A stretch of 64,000 bases of DNA, from NCBI RefSeq assembly GCF_002100115.1, contig NZ_ANBM01000006.1, positions 124,001 through 188,000 on the forward strand, written 5' to 3'. Under the pieces are notes generated by a model, which made no database searches, was not told the origin of the DNA, and was given only the letters and a program-made list of their open reading frames with translations. Position numbers and translations under genes: made by a program. Each line of letters opens with the position of its first letter. Position 1 is the stretch's first letter. The DNA comes from Anaerovibrio sp. JC8 (GTDB taxonomy: Bacteria; Bacillota; Negativicutes; Selenomonadales; Selenomonadaceae). Of this stretch, positions 37,018 to 55,312 are shown piece after piece.

Positions 37018-37210
37018 AAAACGAACACGATACTCCTCAACAATTTATCGATATTTTAGGCAGATAGTTTTATTAAATAATTCCTAATAGACCAGCAGCC
37101 AAGAAAAAAGCTTATTGACACACAAAAAGACCAGAACCACTCTAGACGGTTCTGGTCTTCTTTATTACAGACGAAAATCTCATTTTCGTCTTAATTGATG
37201 GTGGAGATGA
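37018..37210 (-). repeat. ssrA-end/terminator/promoter repeat, copy 1
   Basis: The copy joined to the intact ssrA gene. In leftward order: last 12 bases of tmRNA, hairpin GACGAAAAT/ATTTTCGTC (37170-37190), terminator AAGACCAGAACC/GGTTCTGGTCTTTTT (37125-37162), then sigma-28-like TAAA-N16-ATCGATAA (about 37047-37074). It matches 33057-33250 over its whole length, and 41 bases of it match 30519-30559 exactly. Confidence 0.85.
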
Positions 37211-37550
37211 GGAGAATCGAACTCCTGTCCGAAAGCGTTGTTATATAGACTTCTCCGAGCGCAGTCAATGTTTAAATTTAAGAGCTGGGCAGACACAGAC
37301 AACCGCCGTCCCTCCGATCCTGGAGAAATTTCCCCTCAGGCCTCCAGGAGTCAGCCCTTTGGGTATCCCGCTATTGGCCTCTTATCCGCTCACGCGGGAG
37401 ATAAGCAGACAGAGGTTAGCATTAAGCTGCTAAAGCGTAGTTTTCGTTTGCTTTTATATTTAAAGCGTTTTCACCTTACTAACGGGGCTAGGTGACCCCC
37501 CGGCTCGCTATCCATACTCCAGCCACCCCCGTCGAAACCTTTACATCCCC
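37199..37550 (-). ncRNA. ssrA: tmRNA (transfer-messenger RNA)
   Basis: 352-nt RNA for rescue of stalled ribosomes. The acceptor stem pairs 5' GGGGATG (37550-37544) with CATCTCC before the 3' CCA at 37199-37201. A T-arm GGACAGGAGTTCGATTCTCC lies near the 3' end. The tag-coding part at 37422-37451 reads ANENYALAA-stop, the standard proteolysis tag form. It is followed by a hairpin and a strong terminator in repeat copy 1, and preceded by its own promoter. Its 3' end is repeated at 33239-33250 and 30548-30559, the pattern left by elements that insert at ssrA. Confidence 0.97.
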
Positions 37551-41702: not shown

Positions 41703-42263
41703 TTACTCTACCTCAAAGGTACCATTGATATATTCCTTGCCATTGCCCCTGAGAACCACCTTGTTGCCCTCAACGTCCAGCCACAGTGGTTCCCCTGCAA
41801 ACACGGCATTTCTGTAGGAAACCTCAAACTTCACCACATTCTGCGGCAGGGTCTCCAAAATTCTCTCCATAATGAAGATACCAGGCACCACAGGAATCTC
41901 AGTACGGTGAATCTGATTGGTATCTCCTACGGCAATAACAAAATCCAAAGTCTCCTGGCGGGTAAATACATGCCAGCAGCCCTCAGAATTTACGGCATTA
42001 TCCCCTGTAAGCTCGGGAGCGGTGAGCTCCGCCTTGGCTGCCGCCTCCTTTGGGGTCAGCAGCATGGTTGTGGTAAGGCTCTCCATACCGGAACGGGCCT
42101 GACACAACAGCATACGCTTGGTGGATTTCAGCATTTCCGGCTCGTAGGTGTCACCCTTGTAGGTATCCGGGCTTTCCTTCTGCCACAAATTCTTGATAAT
42201 CATTACACCATCATAATCTCCGCCTCTTAAGCGGCCTGCAATTACTGCTAATTCTCGATTCAT
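41703..42263 (-). CDS. MaoC-like hotdog-fold dehydratase-type protein
   Basis: 186-aa protein. The N-terminal half is unrecognised. The C-terminal half (about 95-186) is a MaoC/FabZ-like hotdog domain with FVIAVGDTNQIHRTEIPVVPG, the D-x-N-x-x-H hydratase/dehydratase motif. It overlaps the ligase gene by 4 nt (ATGA) and precedes the thiolase gene. Together these could activate, condense and dehydrate an acyl chain, possibly for a biotin precursor; that role is inferred from the BirA-controlled context. Confidence 0.75.
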   Translation of the reverse strand: MNRELAVIAGRLRGGDYDGVMIIKNLWQKESPDTYKGDTYEPEMLKSTKRMLLCQARSGMESLTTTMLLTPKEAAAKAELTAPELTGDNAVNSEGCWHVFTRQETLDFVIAVGDTNQIHRTEIPVVPGIFIMERILETLPQNVVKFEVSYRNAVFAGEPLWLDVEGNKVVLRGNGKEYINGTFEVE

Positions 42264-43601
42264 AGCAACTCCTTCAAGGCCTCCTTGTTGACCTTGCCTC
42301 TATCATTTAATGGAAGCATTTCCAAAAAGACCAGCTTCTTTGGACGCTCCCTTTCATCTACATATTCACCAACATCATGGCGGAACTGCTTGGAATCCGC
42401 AGGCCCCTCCGTAACCACAAAGGCCGCAATATCCTGGCCCCTGGTTTCATCCGCAAAGGGCAGCACGGCCACATCTCTGACGTTGTCCATATTTCTGATT
42501 TGCTGCTCCAGCTTAAAGCAGCTGATTTTGTAGCCGCCCTTGTTTATCCAGTCTGTCTTACGGCCTGTAAAAATGATATCCCCATCATCATTTATATAGC
42601 CTGTATCATCGCAGCAATACGGCACCTGAACCCCGCTGACATGAAATGGGGTATCAACCACCAAAACACCGTCTACGGACTTCACCCGGATGCCCTCAAA
42701 GGGCTTGCCCAGATTCATTGTGTTCTCATCATCTATCTCCAGATGCTTGTAGGAAATATAGCTGAGCTCACTGGAGCCGTAGTAAAGAATTATATCCGCC
42801 CCGGTAAAGGTCCTGCGGAGAGCCCGCTGGGTCTTGAGGCTTAAAATCTGGGACCCTGCAATTATCTGCTTCACATAAGGGCTTTCTCCCTTGGCCGCAA
42901 CCCCCAAAATCTGGAGCTTGGCCGGCACCATGTACACATGGGTGACAAAATTACGGACTATAAGCATATTCCAGTAATTTCCGCTGATGCGTCGGCAGGT
43001 CACCACGGAGCCCCCGGCAGCCATCACCGACAGGAACATATTAAGATTGCCGGTAAAGCTCATGCTTCCGTGAAGGAACATAACAGTGTCGGCATCCACA
43101 CCAAACACCTTGTTCTGCTCCTGAAAAAATCCCGCCCAGCTTTCGTAGGTGCGGTACATTACCTTGGCCACCCCCGTGGTTCCGGAGCTCAGTGCCCCCA
43201 TGACATCACAAGGGTAATGGTCCGTCACCCCTTCATCCAGCAGAAGGAAATTGTTTTGCATGGTTCCTACCTGCCACATGCCGTAAATGTTGTTTTCCTG
43301 CATTATGGCTTCCACCACGTCGGAGGAACAATCCTGATGCATCAGAACAGGAATGGCCCCCAGCTTCTCCAATGCCAAAAAAGGCCCCGACTTGATAGAC
43401 AGGACCCTCTGCAATTATCAGTATTGGTTTATACGGCTTGATCCCCTTTTCGGACGCACTGGCAGCCAGTTCATCCACAAGCCTTAAAAGAGAAGCATAA
43501 GAAAAACTTTCCCCATCGCAGTCCAGCATCATTTTATCCGGTATTCTGCTGCACTGCCCGACAAGTAAATCGTAATAGTTTAGCATCTTAACGCTATTCA
43601 C
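42260..43601 (-). pseudogene. AMP-dependent acyl-CoA ligase (YhfT-like), split by +1 frameshift
   Basis: The two halves of one adenylate-forming ligase lie in different frames. The first part starts at GTG 43601 (overlapping the bioY stop as GTGA) and runs KMLNYYDLLVGQCSRIPDKM to ILIIAEG. The second continues VLSIKSGPFLALEKLGAIPV to the end, with the P-loop GALSSGTTGVAK, LYYGSSELSY and TGRKTDWINKGGYKIS. The break is at the GGG of 43405-43407: with two Gs the product would read IIAEVLSIKSGP and be about 446 aa. It could be a sequencing error or a true mutation. The function would be activation of an acyl group with ATP and CoA in a biotin-linked operon. Confidence 0.75.
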
Positions 43602-44962: not shown

Positions 44963-46465
44963 TTATGGCTGGCGCCTGTCTTCTCCGTCTGTTATGACCT
45001 TATTCCACCCATAATACTGGGCGTACATAATATTATGGCTTCCTTCAAGACGGGGCTCCAGATCAGCGCCCCAGGCCAGAATACCCGTATTCCAGGTCAT
45101 GGCACTCTCGCACCACTCTCCCAGTTCATCAGCAATCGGCGGCACATCTATCTGATGCACCACCACCAGCTCCTGATTGGCACGGGCGTTAATGTAGTCT
45201 ATGCGGTCGGTCCACTGTTCATAGACGCTCCATTCCACATGGATAAGGATGCCCGAAACCACCAGCCAAACAGCCGCCACCAGTCCAAAGGCACCCCGGC
45301 AAAATCCCACGTGGTTCTTTGCAAAATGCTCCAGCTCCGGCATTAATTCCCTCAATGCCGTCAATGAAAGAATAATCAGGCAAACTGTAGGGAAAAAGCC
45401 AGCCCGGGCCGAGGCCATGGGCACAAACATCATGATTATCATAACCACCAGTGCTGCGGCAAAAAATACCCCCTGAAACATGGTTACCCTGTTCAGCCGC
45501 TGACCAGCCGGAAGGTTATAAATGTACAGCACCACCGGCACCAATAAAGGCAGCCAGAATTTTGTCACCGGCCAAAAACATTCATCGAAATTGATGTAAA
45601 ACATCAAGGAAGTCCAATACATTTCCGGTGGCAGGGCAGGATTATATTCAAATTCCCGCTGCAAAGCCAAACGATGCATTTCTCCCGGTGCCTGGGTCAG
45701 CATAAGGGTTCCTATGCAGAGGAAAATAAACCCTACCACCATCCAAGCCTCCAGCTGCTTCTGCCGCCAGAAGTATATCAAGGCAAAAAAGGTAATAAAG
45801 GCTACGGCTGCCGCCCCTGTTTCCACGGACCAGCCGGCGGCCAGACCACTTACAGCCATCACGGGAATACTCCATTTTGGGGGAGCTTCCCAAAAATCAC
45901 TGTGCCAGTATTTGAGGCAATAAGGCAGTAAAAACAAGCATTCCAGCAGGGCCATCCAGAGATAAACGCAGCTGCCGCACATCCATAATATGGTCAAGAA
46001 CGGGTCCGGCAGGAAAAACCAGGCGGCCACCACCAGCCATATCATATAGGTCTTGTTCATGCTCTTCAGAATTTCGCCGGTTCCCAGGCGGAACATTAAA
46101 AATATAAGTGCCACAAAAACAACAGTATTCAAAATGTTGAAGGGCAGCTTGCCCTGCCAGGCGAAAAACTGGGTAAGGCCGATTCCCAATATTCTGCCGC
46201 CCCAGGTGAAGTAATGGGACCACTGGCTGACCACAATATCATAAAATGACGTTATCCGCACCCGTTCCCCTACTCCGTCCAGAAGATTTCCCCGGTCTGC
46301 CCCATCCCATATAAAAGCATAGGGTATATCATCAGATACCAGAGGAAGAATCATATTCCGCACAAAAAAGACCAGGGTCACCACCAGCAAAATGGCCTGC
46401 CAGGACAGCCAGGAGGGCAATACAGCTGTATTTTGCTCAATCCGTCCTTCGTTGTGTTTTGCCAT
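44963..46465 (-). CDS. DUF6056-like polytopic membrane protein (second copy)
   Basis: 500-aa membrane protein with about ten helices. The N-terminal region has LVSDDIPYAFIWDG after the first helix and SQWSHYFTWGGRILGIGLTQ near 90-110, as in its upstream paralogue (MVGDDYSYAFIWDP; SQWTHYFTWGGRTFSMLIIQ). The conserved Asp pair after helix 1 resembles GT-C-type glycosyltransferases and O-antigen-modifying GtrII-like proteins, so sugar or lipid transfer at the outer face of the membrane is possible. It is the last gene of a five-gene operon, 1 nt from the preceding gene. Function unknown. Confidence 0.75.
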   Translation of the reverse strand: MAKHNEGRIEQNTAVLPSWLSWQAILLVVTLVFFVRNMILPLVSDDIPYAFIWDGADRGNLLDGVGERVRITSFYDIVVSQWSHYFTWGGRILGIGLTQFFAWQGKLPFNILNTVVFVALIFLMFRLGTGEILKSMNKTYMIWLVVAAWFFLPDPFLTILWMCGSCVYLWMALLECLFLLPYCLKYWHSDFWEAPPKWSIPVMAVSGLAAGWSVETGAAAVAFITFFALIYFWRQKQLEAWMVVGFIFLCIGTLMLTQAPGEMHRLALQREFEYNPALPPEMYWTSLMFYINFDECFWPVTKFWLPLLVPVVLYIYNLPAGQRLNRVTMFQGVFFAAALVVMIIMMFVPMASARAGFFPTVCLIILSLTALRELMPELEHFAKNHVGFCRGAFGLVAAVWLVVSGILIHVEWSVYEQWTDRIDYINARANQELVVVHQIDVPPIADELGEWCESAMTWNTGILAWGADLEPRLEGSHNIMYAQYYGWNKVITDGEDRRQP

Positions 46466-46466
46466 A

Positions 46467-47945
46467 TTATTCTCCTACCTTTTTCCAATCATTTTCCTTG
46501 TCGATACGAATGCTTTTTAAGCCATAAAACTGGGCAAACATATTGGAGCGGTTATCCTTGGGCTTGTATTCCAAATCCGCCCCGTAAATCAGGTGGTATA
46601 TGGTCATGGACCGTGGCCCAAGCCATTCATCCAAATCATCCTGTATATATAGGGCAGGAACCACAATTTCATCATCGTTGCGGTGCTGCTCTATATACTC
46701 CATGCGTCTCTCCCACTGACGGGCATTGGAGGTTTCCACGTATAGCGCCCCCATCAGTGATAGCACCACATATACAAAGGTGACCATTCCCAGGCCCCAA
46801 AGTGAATTGCGCCACACTGCAGACAGCCGGCATTTTTCCCTTAGGAATGGTACGCATTCCTTAAGGGCCGCCGTGGAAGCCACTGTCAGAAACATGGTGG
46901 AATGAAAGCCCGTATGCACCTTAAATTCGGGGGCAAACATCATCAGGCACAGTATTTCCATGCCGGCCCCCGCAAAGGCCATAATATAATGCTTCACCTC
47001 ACGGGTCTTTTGCACTTTCATAAAATATATTATCAGAGGGAGAAGCAAAAAAGACTCCCAAACAAAAATCGGCAGGAACCCCTCGGTGAAGTTTCTGTAA
47101 AACATTTCCGAGGTAAAGAGCTTTTCCGCTGCCAATACGTATTCCGGCTCGTACTGCAGCATGAATTTTTCACGCATAATGGAGCCCGGTGCCAGCATCA
47201 GCAGCAAACAGCCTATAACGGCTCCCGCTGCCCCCGCCACCATCCAGTGCTTAAGGTGCCCCTCCTGACGGTAGAAAAAGAACAATGCCAGCCCCACCAG
47301 GGTCAGTGTAACCAGACTGCCCCCTTCCTCTGACCAGCCGGCCACAAGGCCCAAAAGAGCCATGACCAGTATGGACCATTTAGGCCATTGCCGCCCAAAA
47401 TCCCCGTTTCTGTAGGCCAGTGCGTAGGGCAGCAAAAAGGCACACTCCCAAAGGCCCGTCCACAGATAAACGCAGGCCCCTGTCATCCATACCATGGTGG
47501 TAATGTAATCAAATACCCCAAAGTGAATACACAAAATAACCCACAGAAAACAGCCCTTGGCCTTGGCAGGGGACACAATTTTTCCCATGGCCAGCCAATA
47601 GACAATCGTCATCAGCAGCAGACAGGCAGCAGTGTTGGCCATATCGAAGCAAGCCATGTCCTGCCAGGCAAAAAACTGAATTATCAGCATGGAGAAGGTG
47701 CGCCCGCCCCATGTAAAATAATGGGTCCATTGAGAGGCAAAAACATCACCTATGCTTGCAATCTTCTGCCGTGGGCCTATATCATCCATAAGATTGCCAC
47801 CGTGCTCCGGGTCCCATATAAAGGCATAGGAATAGTCATCCCCCACCATGGGCATAAGGTTATTGCGCCAGAAAAATATTATGCCCACAATAAGCAATAT
47901 AACCTGCCAAGGTATTTTTTCCCACGTTTTAGCAATCCAATTCAT
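46467..47945 (-). CDS. DUF6056-like polytopic membrane protein (first copy)
   Basis: 492-aa relative of the following gene product, with the same topology and motifs (GDDYSYAFIWDP; HYFTWGGRTFS; GAGMEILCLMM..). Its ATG overlaps the RND pump's stop codon by 4 nt, which shows translational coupling. The tandem paralogues in one operon may act as a heterodimer or on two substrates. The acidic DD motif after helix 1 is the likely active-site candidate. No biochemical role is known to me for this family. Confidence 0.75.
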   Translation of the reverse strand: MNWIAKTWEKIPWQVILLIVGIIFFWRNNLMPMVGDDYSYAFIWDPEHGGNLMDDIGPRQKIASIGDVFASQWTHYFTWGGRTFSMLIIQFFAWQDMACFDMANTAACLLLMTIVYWLAMGKIVSPAKAKGCFLWVILCIHFGVFDYITTMVWMTGACVYLWTGLWECAFLLPYALAYRNGDFGRQWPKWSILVMALLGLVAGWSEEGGSLVTLTLVGLALFFFYRQEGHLKHWMVAGAAGAVIGCLLLMLAPGSIMREKFMLQYEPEYVLAAEKLFTSEMFYRNFTEGFLPIFVWESFLLLPLIIYFMKVQKTREVKHYIMAFAGAGMEILCLMMFAPEFKVHTGFHSTMFLTVASTAALKECVPFLREKCRLSAVWRNSLWGLGMVTFVYVVLSLMGALYVETSNARQWERRMEYIEQHRNDDEIVVPALYIQDDLDEWLGPRSMTIYHLIYGADLEYKPKDNRSNMFAQFYGLKSIRIDKENDWKKVGE

Positions 47946-50900
47946 CCTTGAGCCGTACCCTTATATACTCTGCTGATCATAATAAACAGCAATGGAATAA
48001 CAAATACACCCAAAATTGTGCCCACGGTCATGCCGCCTACCACAGCCACACCCATGCTGCAGCGGGATACACTGCCCGCACCGTCAGCAAAGGCCAGCGG
48101 CAGACAGCCCACCACGAAGGCAAAGGATGTCATTATAATTGGCCTGAAACGCAATTTGGCAGCAGTCATCACCGCCCGCAGAGGGGCCATGCCATTATCC
48201 ACCCGCAATTTGGCGTATTCCACTATTAAAATCGCATTTTTAACCGTCAGACCTACTATCAGGAGAATACCAATCTGAACAAAAATGCTGATAGGCTTAT
48301 CAGCCACGGCTACCCCCAGCAGGGTGCCGCCGATTCCCAGCGGTACAGACAGCAGCACCGCCACTGGCAGGCTCCAGGACTCGTAAAGAGCCACCAGACA
48401 AAGGAACACAAACAGAATACCCAGTGCCAGAATATAAATAACCTCACGCTGAGCCTTTTTTTCCTGCAGGCTGTCCTTGGACCAGGCCATACGGAAGCCA
48501 GTTCCGATTACCTTGCCCGCCGCTTCCTCCAAAGCATCCATAGCCTCTCCGGAGGAGTAGCCGTCGGCAGCGGTTACATTGACCTGTATGCTCCGTACAC
48601 CGTTGTAGCGGCTGATATAGCCCGGGCCCACGCCCTTGGAGGAATGGACCAGACTGCTTATTGGCACCATTTCCCCGTCCTCGCTGCGGACAAACAGATA
48701 GCGCAGATCCTCCTCGGTTTCCCGATAGCCACGGTCAGCCTGGATAACAGTCTTATATACTTGGCCATAGCGGGTGAAATCATTGACCTCCTCCCCACCA
48801 AACATGGCTTCCATGGTGGTGTAGATGTCACTTATATTCACCTTTAATTCCTTGGCCAGATCCTCATTTACAGTAAAATCAGCATAAGGGGTATTGATGG
48901 AAAAACCGATTTCCACCTCATCCAGCTCCTCATGCTTCTGGGCCTCCAGATAAAGGGCCGTAGCCAAATCGTTAAGCTCCTCATCTGTATGGCCGCTGAC
49001 ATCCATAATCTGCATGGATATATCCCTCGACAGGAACGGGGCCGCCACCAGCCCGTGGGCCTCCGGCACTGCCTTTTCAATAGCTTCGTTGGCAGCATCC
49101 ACAATATCATCTGGTGCAATGCCCAAATCCTTACGTTCGCTCCAGTCCTTCAGTGCCACGAACATTATGCCCGCATTTGGCTTGGTGGTATCACTTAGCA
49201 GATCGGAGCCGGCAATGCCCACAATATTCTCGATGGCCTCATATTGCAGCATATTCTCCGTCAGCCTGTTAATGGCATCAGCCGTGCGGTTCATGGAGGT
49301 ACCCTCAGTAAGATTAAGTCCTACCATGAAATACCCCTGGTCCTCCCCCGGAATATACTCCGTAGGCAATAACCGATAGCACAATATGATGCCCACGGTC
49401 ATAATTGCCAGACCCACCAATATTGTTCTGGTACGTCTGATGCACCAGCCCAGAACCTTTAAATATTTTTGCTGGCAGCTTCTGAAATAATTTTGGAATC
49501 CCGCCAGTATTTTACTGTTTTCTACCTTATCATTCCAAATTGGCAGTATAAGCACACAGAGAGCCGGTGTGAGAGATAATGCCACAACGGCAGATATTCC
49601 CATGGACACGGCTATGGTCAGGGCAAACTGACGATACAAAATGCCTGTCATGCCGTCAAAAAAGGCTACCGGCAAAAATACAGCCAACAATACAAAGGCA
49701 ATGGCCACAACAGGCTTCTGAACCACACCCATGGCCGCCCTGGTGGCTTCCTTGATATCCAGAATGCCTCTCTCCCGCTCCTGCATTACACTTTCCACCA
49801 CCACTATAGCGTCATCCACCACAAGGCCGATGGCCAGAATAAGGGCAAAGAGAGTGAGAAGATTCAGGGTAAAGCCCAGCAGCTTAAAGGCGATAAAGGT
49901 GGCTATCAACGACACCGGTATGGCGATAATGGAAATAATGGTGGCACCACGGTTCTGCAAAAACAGGAACATGATTACCATTACCAGAAGCAGGGCCTCA
50001 AAAAAGGTATAGGAAACCTCCTGCATGGATTCAGAAATATATTTGGTGCGGTCCACCACTATCCTGCATTCCATGTCAGGCGGAAAGGCTCCTTCAGCCT
50101 CCTCCAATATATCCCGTACCTTGTTTATGGTCTCCAGTGCATTGGCATTATCCGCCAGAGTGATACCATAAGCGGCAGCGGGCTGGCCATCCACATAGGA
50201 TAAATAACGGGTATCCCTTACCCCCTCACTGATACGGGCCACATCCCTCAGTCTGGTGGTGGCGCCGTTTTCTGACTGCAAAATTATTTTTTCAAAATCA
50301 GCGGGGGTCTTCTTGGTGTTCATTACCCGGCCGATTAACTGCTTTTCCTGAACATCCGTTGTCGGGAGCTTGCCCAAAGAGCCCACTGCGGGCCGGACAT
50401 TCTGCTCCTCAATGGCGTTGGAAACATCACTGACAGTAATTCCCCTTGCAGCCATTTTGTCAGGCTGCAGCCATATCCGCATGGCATAATCCTCAGTGTA
50501 CTCATCCACACCGCCGACACCGGAAACCCTCTTGATACGGTCAAGGAAATAGGACTTGGCGTAATTCTGCAAATACACGCTGTCATAGGTGCCATTAGGG
50601 GAGCATAAGGCCATAACAAAGATGGTATCCCTGGTATTGCGGGTCACCTGTATTCCCTCGGACTGAACCGCCTGTGGCAGTTGTGGAAGAATAGCCTGCA
50701 AACGGTTCTGCACATTGACGGTGGCAATATCACCATTGATACCATAATCAAAGGTCACGTTCAGCTGATAGCTTCCCGATGAATCGGAAAAGGAGCTCAG
50801 TGAATCAATGCCTTCGATTCCCCTTATTTCATTTTCGATAATTTTGGCCACTGTATCCTGCAGCACCTGGGAATCAGCCCCCGGATATGAAGTGGAAACA

Positions 50901-51031
50901 CTAACCGTGGGCTGGTTCATGTTCGGGTATTCCTCTATCGGCAGCCTGATGACCGCCAATATACCCAACAGTGTCAGCAAAATAGCCCCTACTACCGCCT
51001 GCAGAGGGTGCCTGATAAAATATTGTGCCAA
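47942..51031 (-). CDS. RND efflux pump, HAE1 (AcrB/MexB) type
   Basis: 1029-aa inner-membrane pump of normal length, twelve helices and two large periplasmic loops. The proton-relay residues are visible: the Asp pair in GLVVDDAIVVVES near 410-420 and the Lys in GLTVKNAILIVEYAK near 930-945. N-terminal RLPIEEYPNMNQPTVSVST and the TM-proximal PGEDQGYFMVGLNLTEG are typical. No adaptor (MFP) or outer-membrane channel gene is in the operon, so it must borrow these or work differently. The start is a TTG at 51031 after GGGGGA; no in-frame ATG or GTG exists after the preceding stop. The MATE-HATPase gene is 36 nt upstream. Confidence 0.93.
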   Translation of the reverse strand: MAQYFIRHPLQAVVGAILLTLLGILAVIRLPIEEYPNMNQPTVSVSTSYPGADSQVLQDTVAKIIENEIRGIEGIDSLSSFSDSSGSYQLNVTFDYGINGDIATVNVQNRLQAILPQLPQAVQSEGIQVTRNTRDTIFVMALCSPNGTYDSVYLQNYAKSYFLDRIKRVSGVGGVDEYTEDYAMRIWLQPDKMAARGITVSDVSNAIEEQNVRPAVGSLGKLPTTDVQEKQLIGRVMNTKKTPADFEKIILQSENGATTRLRDVARISEGVRDTRYLSYVDGQPAAAYGITLADNANALETINKVRDILEEAEGAFPPDMECRIVVDRTKYISESMQEVSYTFFEALLLVMVIMFLFLQNRGATIISIIAIPVSLIATFIAFKLLGFTLNLLTLFALILAIGLVVDDAIVVVESVMQERERGILDIKEATRAAMGVVQKPVVAIAFVLLAVFLPVAFFDGMTGILYRQFALTIAVSMGISAVVALSLTPALCVLILPIWNDKVENSKILAGFQNYFRSCQQKYLKVLGWCIRRTRTILVGLAIMTVGIILCYRLLPTEYIPGEDQGYFMVGLNLTEGTSMNRTADAINRLTENMLQYEAIENIVGIAGSDLLSDTTKPNAGIMFVALKDWSERKDLGIAPDDIVDAANEAIEKAVPEAHGLVAAPFLSRDISMQIMDVSGHTDEELNDLATALYLEAQKHEELDEVEIGFSINTPYADFTVNEDLAKELKVNISDIYTTMEAMFGGEEVNDFTRYGQVYKTVIQADRGYRETEEDLRYLFVRSEDGEMVPISSLVHSSKGVGPGYISRYNGVRSIQVNVTAADGYSSGEAMDALEEAAGKVIGTGFRMAWSKDSLQEKKAQREVIYILALGILFVFLCLVALYESWSLPVAVLLSVPLGIGGTLLGVAVADKPISIFVQIGILLIVGLTVKNAILIVEYAKLRVDNGMAPLRAVMTAAKLRFRPIIMTSFAFVVGCLPLAFADGAGSVSRCSMGVAVVGGMTVGTILGVFVIPLLFIMISRVYKGTAQG

Positions 51032-51067
51032 TGCTTTTCCCCCATTACTTCCAAGACTAAAGACTGA

Positions 51068-52804
51068 CTAATTCATTTCAAATACCAGCTTGTTTTCATC
51101 CCCGGCTGACAAATACTTGCGTCTATAGAAATCCTTGGTTACTGAATCAATAAAATAATCCCTAAAAGAGTATTGCCCCTCGTTAACTACAGAAAGAACA
51201 TCATAGGGCTTCCCATTATCCCGGGCAATCAGCTTAACCGTTTGATTTGCGGCGTCCTCCAGCAAAAAGGAAAACTCCAGCTGAACCGGCTTATTCTGAG
51301 CCCTTTCCACGGCATTCAGCCCCACTTCCTCCACCAGAAGGCTGAGCCGCAATATCTTTGATTTGGGCAGTCCCCAGGCCTTTAATTCATCACGTACTGA
51401 ATAGGATAAATTCATAACCTCTTCCATAACGGCATTTATATCATAGGAATACTGCCTTGCCATTTTGTCCCTGTTCAGCAGGAGGATATTCCCCCGTCCG
51501 GGCCATAGCCTTGTGATCAGCAGATTAAATAAAAAGGCCAGCAAATATCCTGCACCTACTCCCAGCCACATACCTTCCATGCCCCAGTCAGTTCCCAGGA
51601 GCATTCCCAAGATTGGAAATACAAGCAGCAGCATGGTTTTGAGGATAAGGCCATAATTGCGTTCCTCGATGTATATATAATAATTGCTGTAAATCAGGGT
51701 CGGCCCCAGAAATACCAGGAAAATCAGGACGCAGCGCAAGGAAGCAACTATCTCCGCAATAAGATAATCCTCATCCACGCCAAAGAGCAGCGGCAACAGG
51801 AAGGCAAATACGCCCACCCCAATGGCCACAAGCAGGCTCATGATAACTGTACAGGCTATACCCAGCTCCATGGTCTTGCTGACACTGGAATAGCTGCCCT
51901 CGGAATGATACTGGCACACCATGGGCTGCAGACAGTCCACCACGCCGGTATACAGGGCTATGGCCAATACCAGTACATTGGTAATAACAGTTACAACAAT
52001 GATATGGCTCTCACCCCAATGGGCGATAACATACGAGGAAAATACCAAAGGAAGCATGGACAAATACAGGGTATCCGCAGAGTGGTAAAAGCTGTAGGCA
52101 AAGCTCCTTACAATTTCCCGAAAATTACAGTACCAGACAAATTCAAGCTGGCTCTTTTCGGAAAATAAAAAAGCACACTGCACCACACAGGATATGGTGG
52201 TCCCGGCTACAGTTCCCAAGCCGATGCCAATGGTTCCCAAAGCCTTGCACAGAATGATATCCGATATAATATTGGCCACAAAGGCAATGGATGAGGCCCT
52301 GACGCAGACCTGCTCCTCCCCCTCCTGTATGAGAAAGGTGTAGAACAAAATATTTAAGAACACCACAGGAGGCAGCCATTTCAGCCCGTCATAATAGCCT
52401 CTGGCATAGGCCATATAAGCCGGTGAAATCTCCCAAAAGGACAGCAGCTGCTCCCGAAAAATACTTAACAGCAGACTCAGCACCAGCCCCAGGCCTACGG
52501 ACAGCATTATGCCCTGGCTAAATAGGCGGTTGACCTTCTCCCTGTCCTCCTGCCCCTGGGCATAGGCCGCCATCATTCCCAGACCATCTGCAATGAGATA
52601 GCTCACAAAGAACAATATGGTCAGCAGTGGAAAGACCAAGGACATGGCCGCCACTGCATCATCATCAATAAACTGTCCGGCTACGATGTTATCCGACAGC
52701 ATAAGGATATAGGACAGGGTCATGGCCACCATGGCTGACACGAACACTGAACGAAATCTGGTAGAAATAACCGTTTTCTTCCGCAATATTGAGAGAAGGC
52801 TCAT
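51068..52804 (-). CDS. MATE-family exporter fused to a C-terminal HATPase (SpoIIAB-like) domain
   Basis: 578-aa fusion. Residues about 15-440 form twelve helices of the MATE/MOP type (MLSDNIVAGQFIDDDAVAAM, the family's first-helix signature). Residues about 450-578 are a GHKL ATPase of the anti-sigma-factor kind: LLVEEVGLNAVERA (N box, E493 and N497) and ARDNGKPYD (G1 box, D529). The G2 glycine motif is not obvious. The start overlaps the STAS-condensation gene by 4 nt. This suggests an exporter whose activity, or whose partner, is switched by SpoIIAA/SpoIIAB-like phosphorylation of the STAS domain next door; that link is inference. Confidence 0.85.
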   Translation of the reverse strand: MSLLSILRKKTVISTRFRSVFVSAMVAMTLSYILMLSDNIVAGQFIDDDAVAAMSLVFPLLTILFFVSYLIADGLGMMAAYAQGQEDREKVNRLFSQGIMLSVGLGLVLSLLLSIFREQLLSFWEISPAYMAYARGYYDGLKWLPPVVFLNILFYTFLIQEGEEQVCVRASSIAFVANIISDIILCKALGTIGIGLGTVAGTTISCVVQCAFLFSEKSQLEFVWYCNFREIVRSFAYSFYHSADTLYLSMLPLVFSSYVIAHWGESHIIVVTVITNVLVLAIALYTGVVDCLQPMVCQYHSEGSYSSVSKTMELGIACTVIMSLLVAIGVGVFAFLLPLLFGVDEDYLIAEIVASLRCVLIFLVFLGPTLIYSNYYIYIEERNYGLILKTMLLLVFPILGMLLGTDWGMEGMWLGVGAGYLLAFLFNLLITRLWPGRGNILLLNRDKMARQYSYDINAVMEEVMNLSYSVRDELKAWGLPKSKILRLSLLVEEVGLNAVERAQNKPVQLEFSFLLEDAANQTVKLIARDNGKPYDVLSVVNEGQYSFRDYFIDSVTKDFYRRKYLSAGDENKLVFEMN

Positions 52805-54405
52805 GATAACAGCTCCAGCACCGATTTATCCTTTTCCTGCAGGCCCTTGATCATTTCATCCACCAATGTGGCAAAGCGCTCCATCATTCCCTCAGAATAA
52901 CGGCTGGCGTCATATTCCAGCTTCAAGCGGTAGGAGCCGTCATCCTCGCACACCACATGGATGTCCAGTGAATTTTCCACCGCCGAGGCTTTGTTTTGCG
53001 GCAAATCCTGGATTATGGCCACAGTGCCGCAAAGTGGGAATTCACCGCTGACATTGCCCATTATATTGCCCTTCTGCAAAATAAAGGTGGCACATTCATC
53101 CTCCAGCCCCTCATTATACACAGTTTCCAGGCAGTCACGATACTGGAAGCCCTCCGCTACCAGTCGCTCCAGATCCTCAAGGAAATAGCCGACACTTATA
53201 TCCTTGTCAAAATCATATCTTACCGGTATCTGGATAAGCATCAGCCCCATCAGCCGCATTTCCGCCCTGGTGGTGCGCCCGTTATGGACATAGCTCATGA
53301 TGGCATTGCGGCTGCCGGTGGACTTGGCAATGGCCAGCATCATGGCTCCCAGCAAAAATATATGCTCAGGACATTTTGTTTCCTTTAAAAAGTTCTTTTT
53401 AATGTTCTGCAGTGTAGCAAAATGAGCATTAAAATTCCAGGACCCCTCATTTTTATCACTTGGAGGAAGATGTTTACTTTCATCAAAATCCGTCAGCATT
53501 TTGTGCCAATAGGCTGCCCCGGCCTCATTCTTCGGTTTGGCACATTCCTCTTTTATATACTCCGCATAGCTATATGGAGGCTGCTTTACCGGTTTTCCCA
53601 GATAGCGGTTGTCCAATTCACGGAAAAACAGCAATGCCGTGGCCACACCGTCCATTATCACATGATAGAAATCCACATAGAGATATTTCCCCGACGGGGT
53701 GATTATCAAATAAATACGGAACAATGGTCTGTCTATAATCTGATATGGCTTCTTCAGCTCCAGCTTGCGCTTTTCAAACTCCGCTTCCGACAGGGACTCA
53801 ATCCGTACCTTGGACAGGGTTCCGTCAAAGCGTTGGGATATTTCGCCGGTTTCCGGATGGAACAATATACGGCAACGGAAAATATCATGGGCCGCCAGGG
53901 TATCATTGATAGCCCCTGCCAAACGCTCCATATCAATGGAATCATCCAACTTGGCCAGACCGCCTTCGTTCATCATGGTAGAATTGGCCTTCTGGAAATG
54001 GGTGTCCATCATCCAGCGCTGGATCGGACGGAGCGGATAAAATCCTCCCAGGCTGTCCTGGAGTTCCCCCTCCTCATCCTCCTGACCAATGTGAACAATA
54101 TCCACAAACCGGTTGAAGCCAGTCATGGAAAAGACCTCGTCCACCTCTTCCTTTGGATTTACCACCTTGAATTTAATATTTTCCCGGTCCGCCCACTTTT
54201 TGGCCAAAAGGATGGCACGCAGCCCCGCCGATGACATATACTCCAGCTGGGATAAATCAACCTGGATTTCAGCAAAATCACGGGTCAAGGACTCCAGCTT
54301 ACCATTAAATTCCGGAGATGTATTGGCATCCAGCCGCCCCACCAGCCTTGCCACCATCACGTCATTATTGGCATCATTTCTGTTTATATTAATATCCAGC
54401 TTCAT
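52801..54405 (-). CDS. STAS domain fused to a condensation-type acyltransferase domain
   Basis: 534-aa soluble fusion. Residues 1-110 are a STAS/anti-sigma-antagonist domain (VARLVGRLDANTSPEFNGKL, then VDLSQLEYMSSAGLRAILLA; Ser59 aligns with the phospho-serine of SpoIIAA). Residues about 118-534 resemble the NRPS condensation/CoA-dependent acyltransferase superfamily, with H-x-x-x-D-G at 248-253 (FYHVIMDGVA) and the expected N-terminal RWMMDTHF. No adenylation or carrier domain is nearby. It is the first gene of the operon, coupled to the MATE-HATPase gene. A GAGGGTAAGATAAT site precedes the ATG. It may join an acyl or aminoacyl group to a small acceptor; the product is unknown. Confidence 0.82.
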   Translation of the reverse strand: MKLDININRNDANNDVMVARLVGRLDANTSPEFNGKLESLTRDFAEIQVDLSQLEYMSSAGLRAILLAKKWADRENIKFKVVNPKEEVDEVFSMTGFNRFVDIVHIGQEDEEGELQDSLGGFYPLRPIQRWMMDTHFQKANSTMMNEGGLAKLDDSIDMERLAGAINDTLAAHDIFRCRILFHPETGEISQRFDGTLSKVRIESLSEAEFEKRKLELKKPYQIIDRPLFRIYLIITPSGKYLYVDFYHVIMDGVATALLFFRELDNRYLGKPVKQPPYSYAEYIKEECAKPKNEAGAAYWHKMLTDFDESKHLPPSDKNEGSWNFNAHFATLQNIKKNFLKETKCPEHIFLLGAMMLAIAKSTGSRNAIMSYVHNGRTTRAEMRLMGLMLIQIPVRYDFDKDISVGYFLEDLERLVAEGFQYRDCLETVYNEGLEDECATFILQKGNIMGNVSGEFPLCGTVAIIQDLPQNKASAVENSLDIHVVCEDDGSYRLKLEYDASRYSEGMMERFATLVDEMIKGLQEKDKSVLELLS

Positions 54406-54595
54406 ATTATCTTACCCTCTTTACGTCATTTCTTACCTAACAACAGTTATTTTTTAATTATAACGTAATTTTACAAATTTTTCCCACATTTTCCTATGTG
54501 AAATTTTTTTGTAATACATCCTTTTGCTGTTCGTATGTAATAAACGAGAAAAGAAATTCATCTGCTATCTGCTATTTGATAGAAAGGAAAACAAG

Positions 54596-55312
54596 ATGAA
54601 GAAATTGATGTATTCCAACAACAGCAATTTATCACTGCCATGCTGCATTACTGATGATGCAGTCCTAGTTTCCGGCAGCGCTGCAGCCCAGGACAATGTT
54701 TTGGCCGGATGCCAGCTTCAGGCTCAGATGATTTACAATATGGCCATAGCCAAGGAACCCTACATCACCATTGACATGCTGGATATAGCCCATAAGCTGG
54801 GCACCACCATGGTGGGTTTGGAAAATTCCATCAAGACAGCCTCCAGCATCAAGAAAAAAATTGACCGTCTCACCAATGATGCACTGCTGGCCGGGGAAGA
54901 GCCAAAGCAGGATTACGCCTATGTGGCCGAATTCGGTGACCTTCTCCGCTATACCGAGCTGGTTGACCACGACGAAATGGCCGGCAAGGCCCGTGAAACC
55001 GTGTTGCTCCTTGAGGATAAGGGGTACACTCTGTACGAAATCGACAACAAATATCTGAACCAGCAGGGCCGTTACAAGGCGGTTCACCTTAATGTTCTGA
55101 GCCCATCGGGCCAGACCTTTGAAATACAGATTCATTCCCGGGAAACCATGGAAGCCAACCAGTTTACCCATAAGCTCTATGAGGAATGGCGCAAGCCTGA
55201 AACCAATGCTGAGCGGAAAGCCGCTCTCTATTCCACCATCAAGCGTACCTACGACAATCTGCCATTACCTACGGGAATCTTCCAGCTGGAAAACTACAAA
55301 CGGGCTATATAG
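54596..55312 (+). CDS. RelA/SpoT-like domain protein
   Basis: 238-aa soluble protein. From about residue 78 it follows the (p)ppGpp-synthetase fold: SIKTASSIKKKIDRLTND, then EFGDLLRYTELVD (D-x-x-R with the metal-binding Asp), GRYKAVHLN and FEIQIHSRETME followed by HKLYEEWR. The N-terminal 75 residues are not recognised. It resembles small or phage-type RelA/SpoT proteins, so nucleotide pyrophosphate transfer is possible but unproven. The ATG at 54596 lies 9 nt after AAAGGAAA. It is divergent from the STAS-condensation operon with a 190-nt shared promoter region. Confidence 0.75.
   Translation: MKKLMYSNNSNLSLPCCITDDAVLVSGSAAAQDNVLAGCQLQAQMIYNMAIAKEPYITIDMLDIAHKLGTTMVGLENSIKTASSIKKKIDRLTNDALLAGEEPKQDYAYVAEFGDLLRYTELVDHDEMAGKARETVLLLEDKGYTLYEIDNKYLNQQGRYKAVHLNVLSPSGQTFEIQIHSRETMEANQFTHKLYEEWRKPETNAERKAALYSTIKRTYDNLPLPTGIFQLENYKRAI

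Follow-up and report, generated by a model that had tools for sequence, protein, structure and literature searches.

A phospho-antagonist domain on a condensation enzyme and a degenerate kinase domain on its neighboring exporter: a candidate partner switch between synthesis and export in rumen Negativicutes

Why would an antagonist domain of the kind best known from sigma-factor control be fused to a biosynthetic enzyme, and its apparent kinase counterpart to the exporter encoded next door? This question is raised by a five-gene operon in a 64,000-nucleotide stretch of Anaerovibrio sp. JC8 (hereafter the window), which lies on contig C6 of a 2.68 Mb genome that is 99.99% complete. Its first gene joins a STAS domain to a condensation domain of the type found in nonribosomal peptide synthetases (NRPSs), and its second joins a MATE exporter to a GHKL-type ATPase (HATPase) domain. 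According to the original prediction, phosphorylation of the STAS domain by this HATPase could couple the making of a product to its export. We find that the two fusions form a conserved pair with an invariant phospho-site, while the exporter tail is a degenerate relative of the SpoIIAB-type kinases and probably serves for docking. The features of the pair, as positions in the window, are as follows.

52801..54405, minus strand: STAS-condensation fusion, 534 aa (open reading frame, Pfam; AlphaFold 2 model, pLDDT 87.7)
54088..54405, minus strand: SpoIIAA-like STAS domain, aa 1-106 (Pfam PF01740 8e-15; NCBIfam ant_ant_sig above cut-off)
54229..54231, minus strand: Ser59 codon, SpoIIAA-type phospho-site (Ser in 38/38 STAS-condensation homologues)
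52804..54045, minus strand: condensation domain, aa 121-534 (Pfam PF00668 1.7e-39; VIA Z ~32 to NRPS condensation domains)
53647..53664, minus strand: catalytic H248-x-x-x-D252-G253 (YHxxxDG in 38/38 fused homologues)
51068..52804, minus strand: MATE exporter fused to a degenerate GHKL ATPase, 578 aa (MatE PF01554 1.1e-26; AlphaFold 2 model, pLDDT 88.6)
51071..51454, minus strand: HATPase-like domain, aa 451-578 (HATPase_c_2 PF13581 7e-5, sub-threshold; hhalign 92.5%)
51314..51328, minus strand: N-box E493..N497 (Glu widely kept; Asn in 3/47 homologues)
51212..51220, minus strand: G1 box D529-N-G531, the next Gly replaced (K-P) (Asp in 44/47)

All five open reading frames lie on the minus strand, from 52801-54405 down to 44963-46465, with overlaps of 4 and 4 nt and gaps of 36 and 1 nt; this layout, and the positions of Ser59, H248-x3-D252-G253, E493/N497 and D529-N-G531, agree with the original prediction.

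The STAS part of the first protein has a SpoIIAA-type antagonist fold, its profile matches both SpoIIAA and RsbV, and the phosphorylatable Ser stands two residues before a G-L pair. Ser59 and the surrounding loop are the best-conserved stretch of the domain. In the AlphaFold model, the STAS domain is followed by a loose linker (residues 108-117) and a condensation fold whose active site keeps an invariant second His, Asp and Gly, with Tyr in place of the first His. Both sites that had been picked out from the sequence, the phospho-serine and the H-x-x-x-D-G motif, are thus invariant across all fusions. The window operon is not a canonical NRPS assembly line, for it encodes neither adenylation nor carrier domains; these are present in the relatives that we describe below as type A. 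Its product is probably an amide or ester, formed from an acyl or aminoacyl thioester donor.

The second protein is a MATE exporter with a 12-helix fold (VIA Z 36.8 to PfMATE), followed in the model by a domain whose strands and helices succeed one another as in GHKL proteins. Pfam, the model and profile comparison agree with the proposal that a SpoIIAB-like domain is fused to the transporter, and its motifs show that this domain is degenerate. Its HATPase_c_2 match reaches 23.3 bits against a curated cut-off of 27.4. By hhalign, window-type tails match canonical HATPases at 92.5% probability over the N-box to G1 region only, and type A tails at 93.7% over most of the domain. A PDB profile search with the tail alone gave nothing significant, and fold searches with the exporter model returned lists filled by MATE matches that aligned up to model residue ~450, none over the tail. 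The three boxes of SpoIIAB and RsbW kinases (ExxxN, DxGxG, GxG) are not intact in the tail. The Mg-binding Asn of the N-box is absent in 44/47 MATE-linked HATPases and kept only by the window's copy and its two nearest relatives; the second G1 Gly is missing in the window tail; and the window's lineage has lost the G2 (GxG) glycine box, of which a remnant persists in the type A lineage. Since homology is clear and catalysis unlikely, the motif pattern suggests that the tail is probably a docking pseudokinase and not a kinase.

Could the fusions be accidents of assembly? When 84,980 species genomes were scanned, 88 loci could be confirmed; we kept 80 of these and annotated them with purpose-built hidden Markov models. 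Among these are 38 STAS-condensation loci, mainly from rumen Selenomonadaceae and Acidaminococcaceae, and in 34 a MATE-HATPase gene is adjacent or one NRPS gene away; of the remaining four, three are cut off by the end of a contig and the fourth, L112, carries a plain MATE. The fusions are therefore real and conserved together, and an assembly artefact is ruled out. Reading the locus in terms of synthesis and export is also supported. Across the family, 76 of the 189 genomes searched contain orthologues, and these genomes represent 8 of 30 genera; A. lipolyticus LB2005 is the nearest named relative at the window locus (85% identity). Only 5/15 Anaerovibrio congeners carry the fusion. Judging by record titles, the named hosts were isolated from the rumen or binned from ruminant gut metagenomes. 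Two Lachnospiraceae loci also have the fusion, and a 'Fretibacterium' locus that groups within Negativicutes may be a binning error. Plasmid-borne spread was considered and set aside, the best plasmid matches being only NRPS-like at ~20-23% identity.

The loci fall into three types. Type A (Succiniclasticum, other Acidaminococcaceae, Selenomonas and others) runs dCache-HAMP-SpoIIE phosphatase, STAS-condensation, an NRPS of adenylation, peptidyl carrier and condensation domains, then MATE-HATPase, after which some species have stand-alone STAS and HATPase genes and another SpoIIE; Schwartzia lacks the NRPS gene but has the other three. In 18 loci, dCache-SpoIIE lies just upstream of the fusion. 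The type A adenylation pocket, which we take to be approximately D-G-A/T/G-D-V-G-E-V-S (manual alignment to GrsA motifs), contains two acidic residues, and so a cationic amino acid is weakly predicted as its substrate. In type B, the window's type (Anaerovibrio, Selenomonas ruminantium), MATE-HATPase directly follows STAS-condensation, at a spacing of -4 nt in most loci, and an RND gene and two DUF6056 genes are usually near. Type C, from one genus-level group of uncultured Selenomonadaceae, has a STAS-less condensation gene, in many loci behind MATE-HATPase. A single STAS change (support 99) sets type C apart on the condensation tree, where it stands beside type B, and STAS was thus most simply lost there. 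The exporters partnering STAS-condensation belong to two MATE lineages separated by more than 3 substitutions per site, and in Lachnospiraceae to a third, with branches too long to tell a single fusion from repeated ones.

Type C condensation genes (for example L089:9989-15221) often precede a PotABCD-like ABC transporter operon. A polyamine-peptidoglycan ligase, considered on account of these neighbors, was rejected in view of the patchy occurrence of the fusion, seen even among Anaerovibrio genomes, and of a literature search that found no match. A Selenomonas diamine transferase acting in the attachment of polyamine to peptidoglycan is known, although to our knowledge no gene has been assigned to it.

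If the exporter tail is not a kinase, what could set the state of Ser59? The organism's own genome encodes four STAS domains, three full-length dCache-HAMP-SpoIIE phosphatases and one partial, and two intact HATPases. All boxes are kept in these two, on contigs C3 and C7, and in the stand-alone HATPases of type A operons (L061, L069, L071, L073, L077). The C7 cluster (L035:4721-14804) is an unfused counterpart, with STAS, a 2044-aa NRPS of two adenylation-thiolation-condensation modules, a plain MATE and dCache-SpoIIE. In the C3 cluster (L036:5434-12975), which adjoins an aminotransferase and a MATE gene, HATPase, STAS and SpoIIE are joined by a condensation protein that weakly matches a cyclic-nucleotide-binding domain. 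Condensation enzymes beside partner-switch genes are thus a recurring theme in this organism. Among five fusion-less congeners tested, G001 and G008 carry some STAS and SpoIIE genes, and in G003, G012 and G014 neither was found at the thresholds used.

We tentatively favor a reading in which the partner switch acts directly on the enzyme-exporter pair and not on a sigma factor, with a kinase and a phosphatase in trans setting Ser59 and the STAS domain docking on the exporter tail. The following steps, from the phosphorylation cycle, the docking and the direction of the switch to the product and what the RND and DUF6056 proteins do, are what we infer. An intact kinase of the RsbW/SpoIIAB type, encoded elsewhere, would phosphorylate Ser59, and a dCache-HAMP-SpoIIE phosphatase in the membrane would sense a signal from outside the cell and remove the phosphate. 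Unphosphorylated STAS would dock on the catalytically dead HATPase tail and so join synthase and exporter. The condensation product would then be handed to MATE and cross the inner membrane, and the RND permease and two DUF6056 proteins could act on it at the outer side.

Several observations weigh against this. The window operon contains no phosphatase, adenylation or carrier gene. The window's tail retains E493, N497 and D529, making residual ATP binding possible. The STAS-less type C clade retains condensation plus MATE-HATPase in many loci, and the STAS-HATPase interface is beyond the reach of single-chain prediction tools. Two genomes also depart from the expected arrangement: in the congener G004 (C174, L137:5389-13623) MATE-HATPase, RND and both DUF6056 genes occur without the fused enzyme, and in G006 the pair is present but RND-DUF6056 sits on a different contig.

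Four other explanations have to be weighed on the same evidence. A constitutive tether, in which STAS and HATPase do no more than dock and phosphorylation is irrelevant, fits the degenerate HATPase and the missing phosphatase gene in the window operon. It leaves the Ser59 loop, the most conserved part of STAS, and the 18 phosphatase-flanked fusions without a role, and we consider it unlikely. The active kinase of the original prediction is less likely still. In its favor are the residues kept by the window copy (E493, N497, D529-x-G531), the invariance of Ser59, the translational coupling of the fusion genes and the existence of MATE-HATPases with an intact N-box (L037, L154). The loss of the Mg-binding Asn in 44/47, the absence of the G2 box from the window's lineage and the sub-threshold Pfam score argue the other way, as do the intact kinases found elsewhere in the genome or within the same operon of relatives, and on these grounds that assignment is not supported.

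The two domains might also have separate partners in trans, with STAS answering other switch modules and the tail binding the condensation domain or regulating MATE. Persistence of the HATPase in the STAS-less clade and in the enzyme-less G004 speaks for such independence; yet in most of that clade the tail is more degraded, and many of its loci have no MATE adjoining the condensation gene, and so we regard this as improbable. Least probable to us is that the partner-switch proteins govern transcription of the cluster and that the fusions are incidental. Expression control was proposed where an NRPS is surrounded by unfused genes for STAS, phosphatase and MatE (PMC2812497), but here, across dozens of loci, the enzyme contains STAS and the exporter contains the HATPase as a covalent part. 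Direct control at the protein level, as in the reading we favor, fits this better.

The remainder of the operon consists of three membrane protein genes.

47942..51031, minus strand: RND (HAE1-type) permease, 1029 aa (ACR_tran PF00873 2.5e-292)
46467..47945, minus strand: DUF6056 membrane protein 1, 492 aa (PF19528 4e-94)
44963..46465, minus strand: DUF6056 membrane protein 2, 500 aa (PF19528 4e-111; conserved D45-D46 in the N-terminal region)

The permease is AcrB-type and an orphan, with no adaptor gene in the window operon. This RND-DUF6056 cassette tends to come and go with the pair. Orthologues of both DUF6056 genes occur in 13/15 type B fusion genomes versus 2/18 others (Fisher p 1.7e-5, uncorrected for relatedness), and within Anaerovibrio in 5/6 genomes with the fusion versus 1/10 (p 0.008, likewise uncorrected); orthologues of the second gene share 64-89% identity. 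S. ruminantium Z108 and SIG241 have the same parts rearranged, in the order RND, DUF6056, DUF6056, STAS-condensation, MATE-HATPase. In the congeners G008 and G002 the second DUF6056 gene is reduced to its final 48-58 codons (L138:9267-9410, L140:1714-1887) amid flanks that are otherwise syntenic, the scar of an en bloc loss of the operon. In G004, the exporter-cassette block lies directly behind atpC of the ATP synthase operon. The suggestion that these proteins are linked to the pair therefore stands as a tendency to co-occur, and a role in export or envelope modification would be a further step. We infer that the DUF6056 proteins are GT-C-type glycosyltransferases dependent on a polyprenyl-phosphate sugar. 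At L085 a DUF6056 gene adjoins a GT2 glycosyltransferase; the literature search found no paper on DUF6056.

Is the design confined to these hosts? When the MATE tail was used to search 299 genomes from across the phylum, MATE-HATPase fusions turned up in further families. All six loci fetched from that search (L153-L158) have a SpoIIE gene, and four have STAS or free HATPase genes; our searches brought up no account of such a class in the literature. The N-box is intact in the MATE-HATPase of L037 and in the L154 fusion, which scores above the Pfam cut-off. Loci L153, L155 and L158 have an MBOAT-type or GNAT acyltransferase as neighbor and no condensation protein (L155 being assigned to MBOAT by the similarity of its start to L153). 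These SpoIIE, STAS and acyltransferase neighborhoods point to a general design in which partner-switch parts are placed on the MATE exporters of enzyme-linked clusters. That MATE proteins with a dead GHKL tail form an undescribed class in Bacillota, in which partner switching works directly on the synthesis and export of small molecules and a phospho-switched STAS brings a synthase to a pseudokinase dock on the exporter, is an idea that we put forward as somewhat doubtful; the rumen fusion would be its clearest example.

Around the operon, the window holds other features. Upstream, a divergent 262-aa open reading frame (54524-55312) has a sub-threshold match to the C-terminal part of PRK09169/XopAD-type proteins and nothing in Pfam above cut-off; its motifs look RelA/SpoT-like. 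A cassette of BioY, ligase, 186-aa protein and thiolase genes was considered as part of the operon and rejected: an opposite-strand Lrp-type gene intervenes, and the cassette remains where the operon is deleted. Its AMP-ligase is split over two frames in the window (42260-43601), a frameshift or sequencing error, and is a single open reading frame of 441-446 aa in L025 and L026. A tmRNA gene lies at 37199-37550, with the tag ANENYALAA.

If the favored reading is true, parts that are familiar chiefly from the control of sigma factors serve here as a post-translational switch to recruit a synthase to its exporter, and the numerous SpoIIE, STAS and HATPase genes of rumen Negativicutes gain a concrete target outside transcription. 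The named hosts come from ruminant guts, again as far as titles tell, and the product could therefore play a part in the ecology of the rumen. The question is open to testing, because among the relatives there are natural strains that have the whole system, half of it or none.

How, then, does the locus compare with known systems? The exporter shares the MATE fold of ClbM and PfMATE/DinF (VIA Z 31-37), and ClbM also serves an NRPS-type product; the solved MATE chains that aligned match the transporter part of the window protein only and not its HATPase tail. Shared with SpoIIAA/SpoIIAB and RsbV/RsbW are the STAS phospho-serine motif, the GHKL fold with remnants of the N-box and G1, and, in relatives, nearby SpoIIE-type phosphatases. 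Here, however, the antagonist lies inside an enzyme, the HATPase is tethered to the membrane and lacks the catalytic boxes, and the window operon has no sigma factor (loci were not systematically scanned for sigma factors).

In gut Firmicutes, fatty acid amides are made by OaaC, a condensation domain that stands alone and carries the motif (D/H)HxxxDS (PMC13142362). The window enzyme resembles it in being a condensation protein from gut Firmicutes outside an assembly line, with the second His and Asp of the motif invariant. It differs in having YHxxxDG against mainly (D/H)HxxxDS/A, no stand-alone adenylation and acyl carrier protein genes in the window operon, and an attached STAS domain; by motif and operon content it does not match the OaaC type.

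The closest precedent is in Methanobrevibacter ruminantium M1, where the genes on either side of an NRPS encode two serine phosphatases, an antagonist of anti-sigma factors and a MatE protein, and a second cluster holds an acyltransferase, a phosphopantetheinyl transferase, a phosphatase, an antagonist and a kinase (the clusters being mru0066-0071 and mru0512-0516); in 2010 these were read as sensing and control of NRPS expression (PMC2812497). The original prediction knew of no described system with this layout. That holds for the fusions: our literature search found no report of STAS-condensation or MATE-pseudokinase proteins, with most subscription papers outside its coverage. It fails for the unfused arrangement of NRPS, MatE, antagonist and phosphatase genes, which is already published. 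Both systems, each from the rumen, cluster a condensation-type or acyltransferase enzyme, MatE, an antagonist, a serine phosphatase and an anti-sigma-type kinase. The difference is that M. ruminantium M1 is described as having separate genes, whereas here the enzyme carries a fused STAS domain and the exporter a fused, degenerate HATPase.

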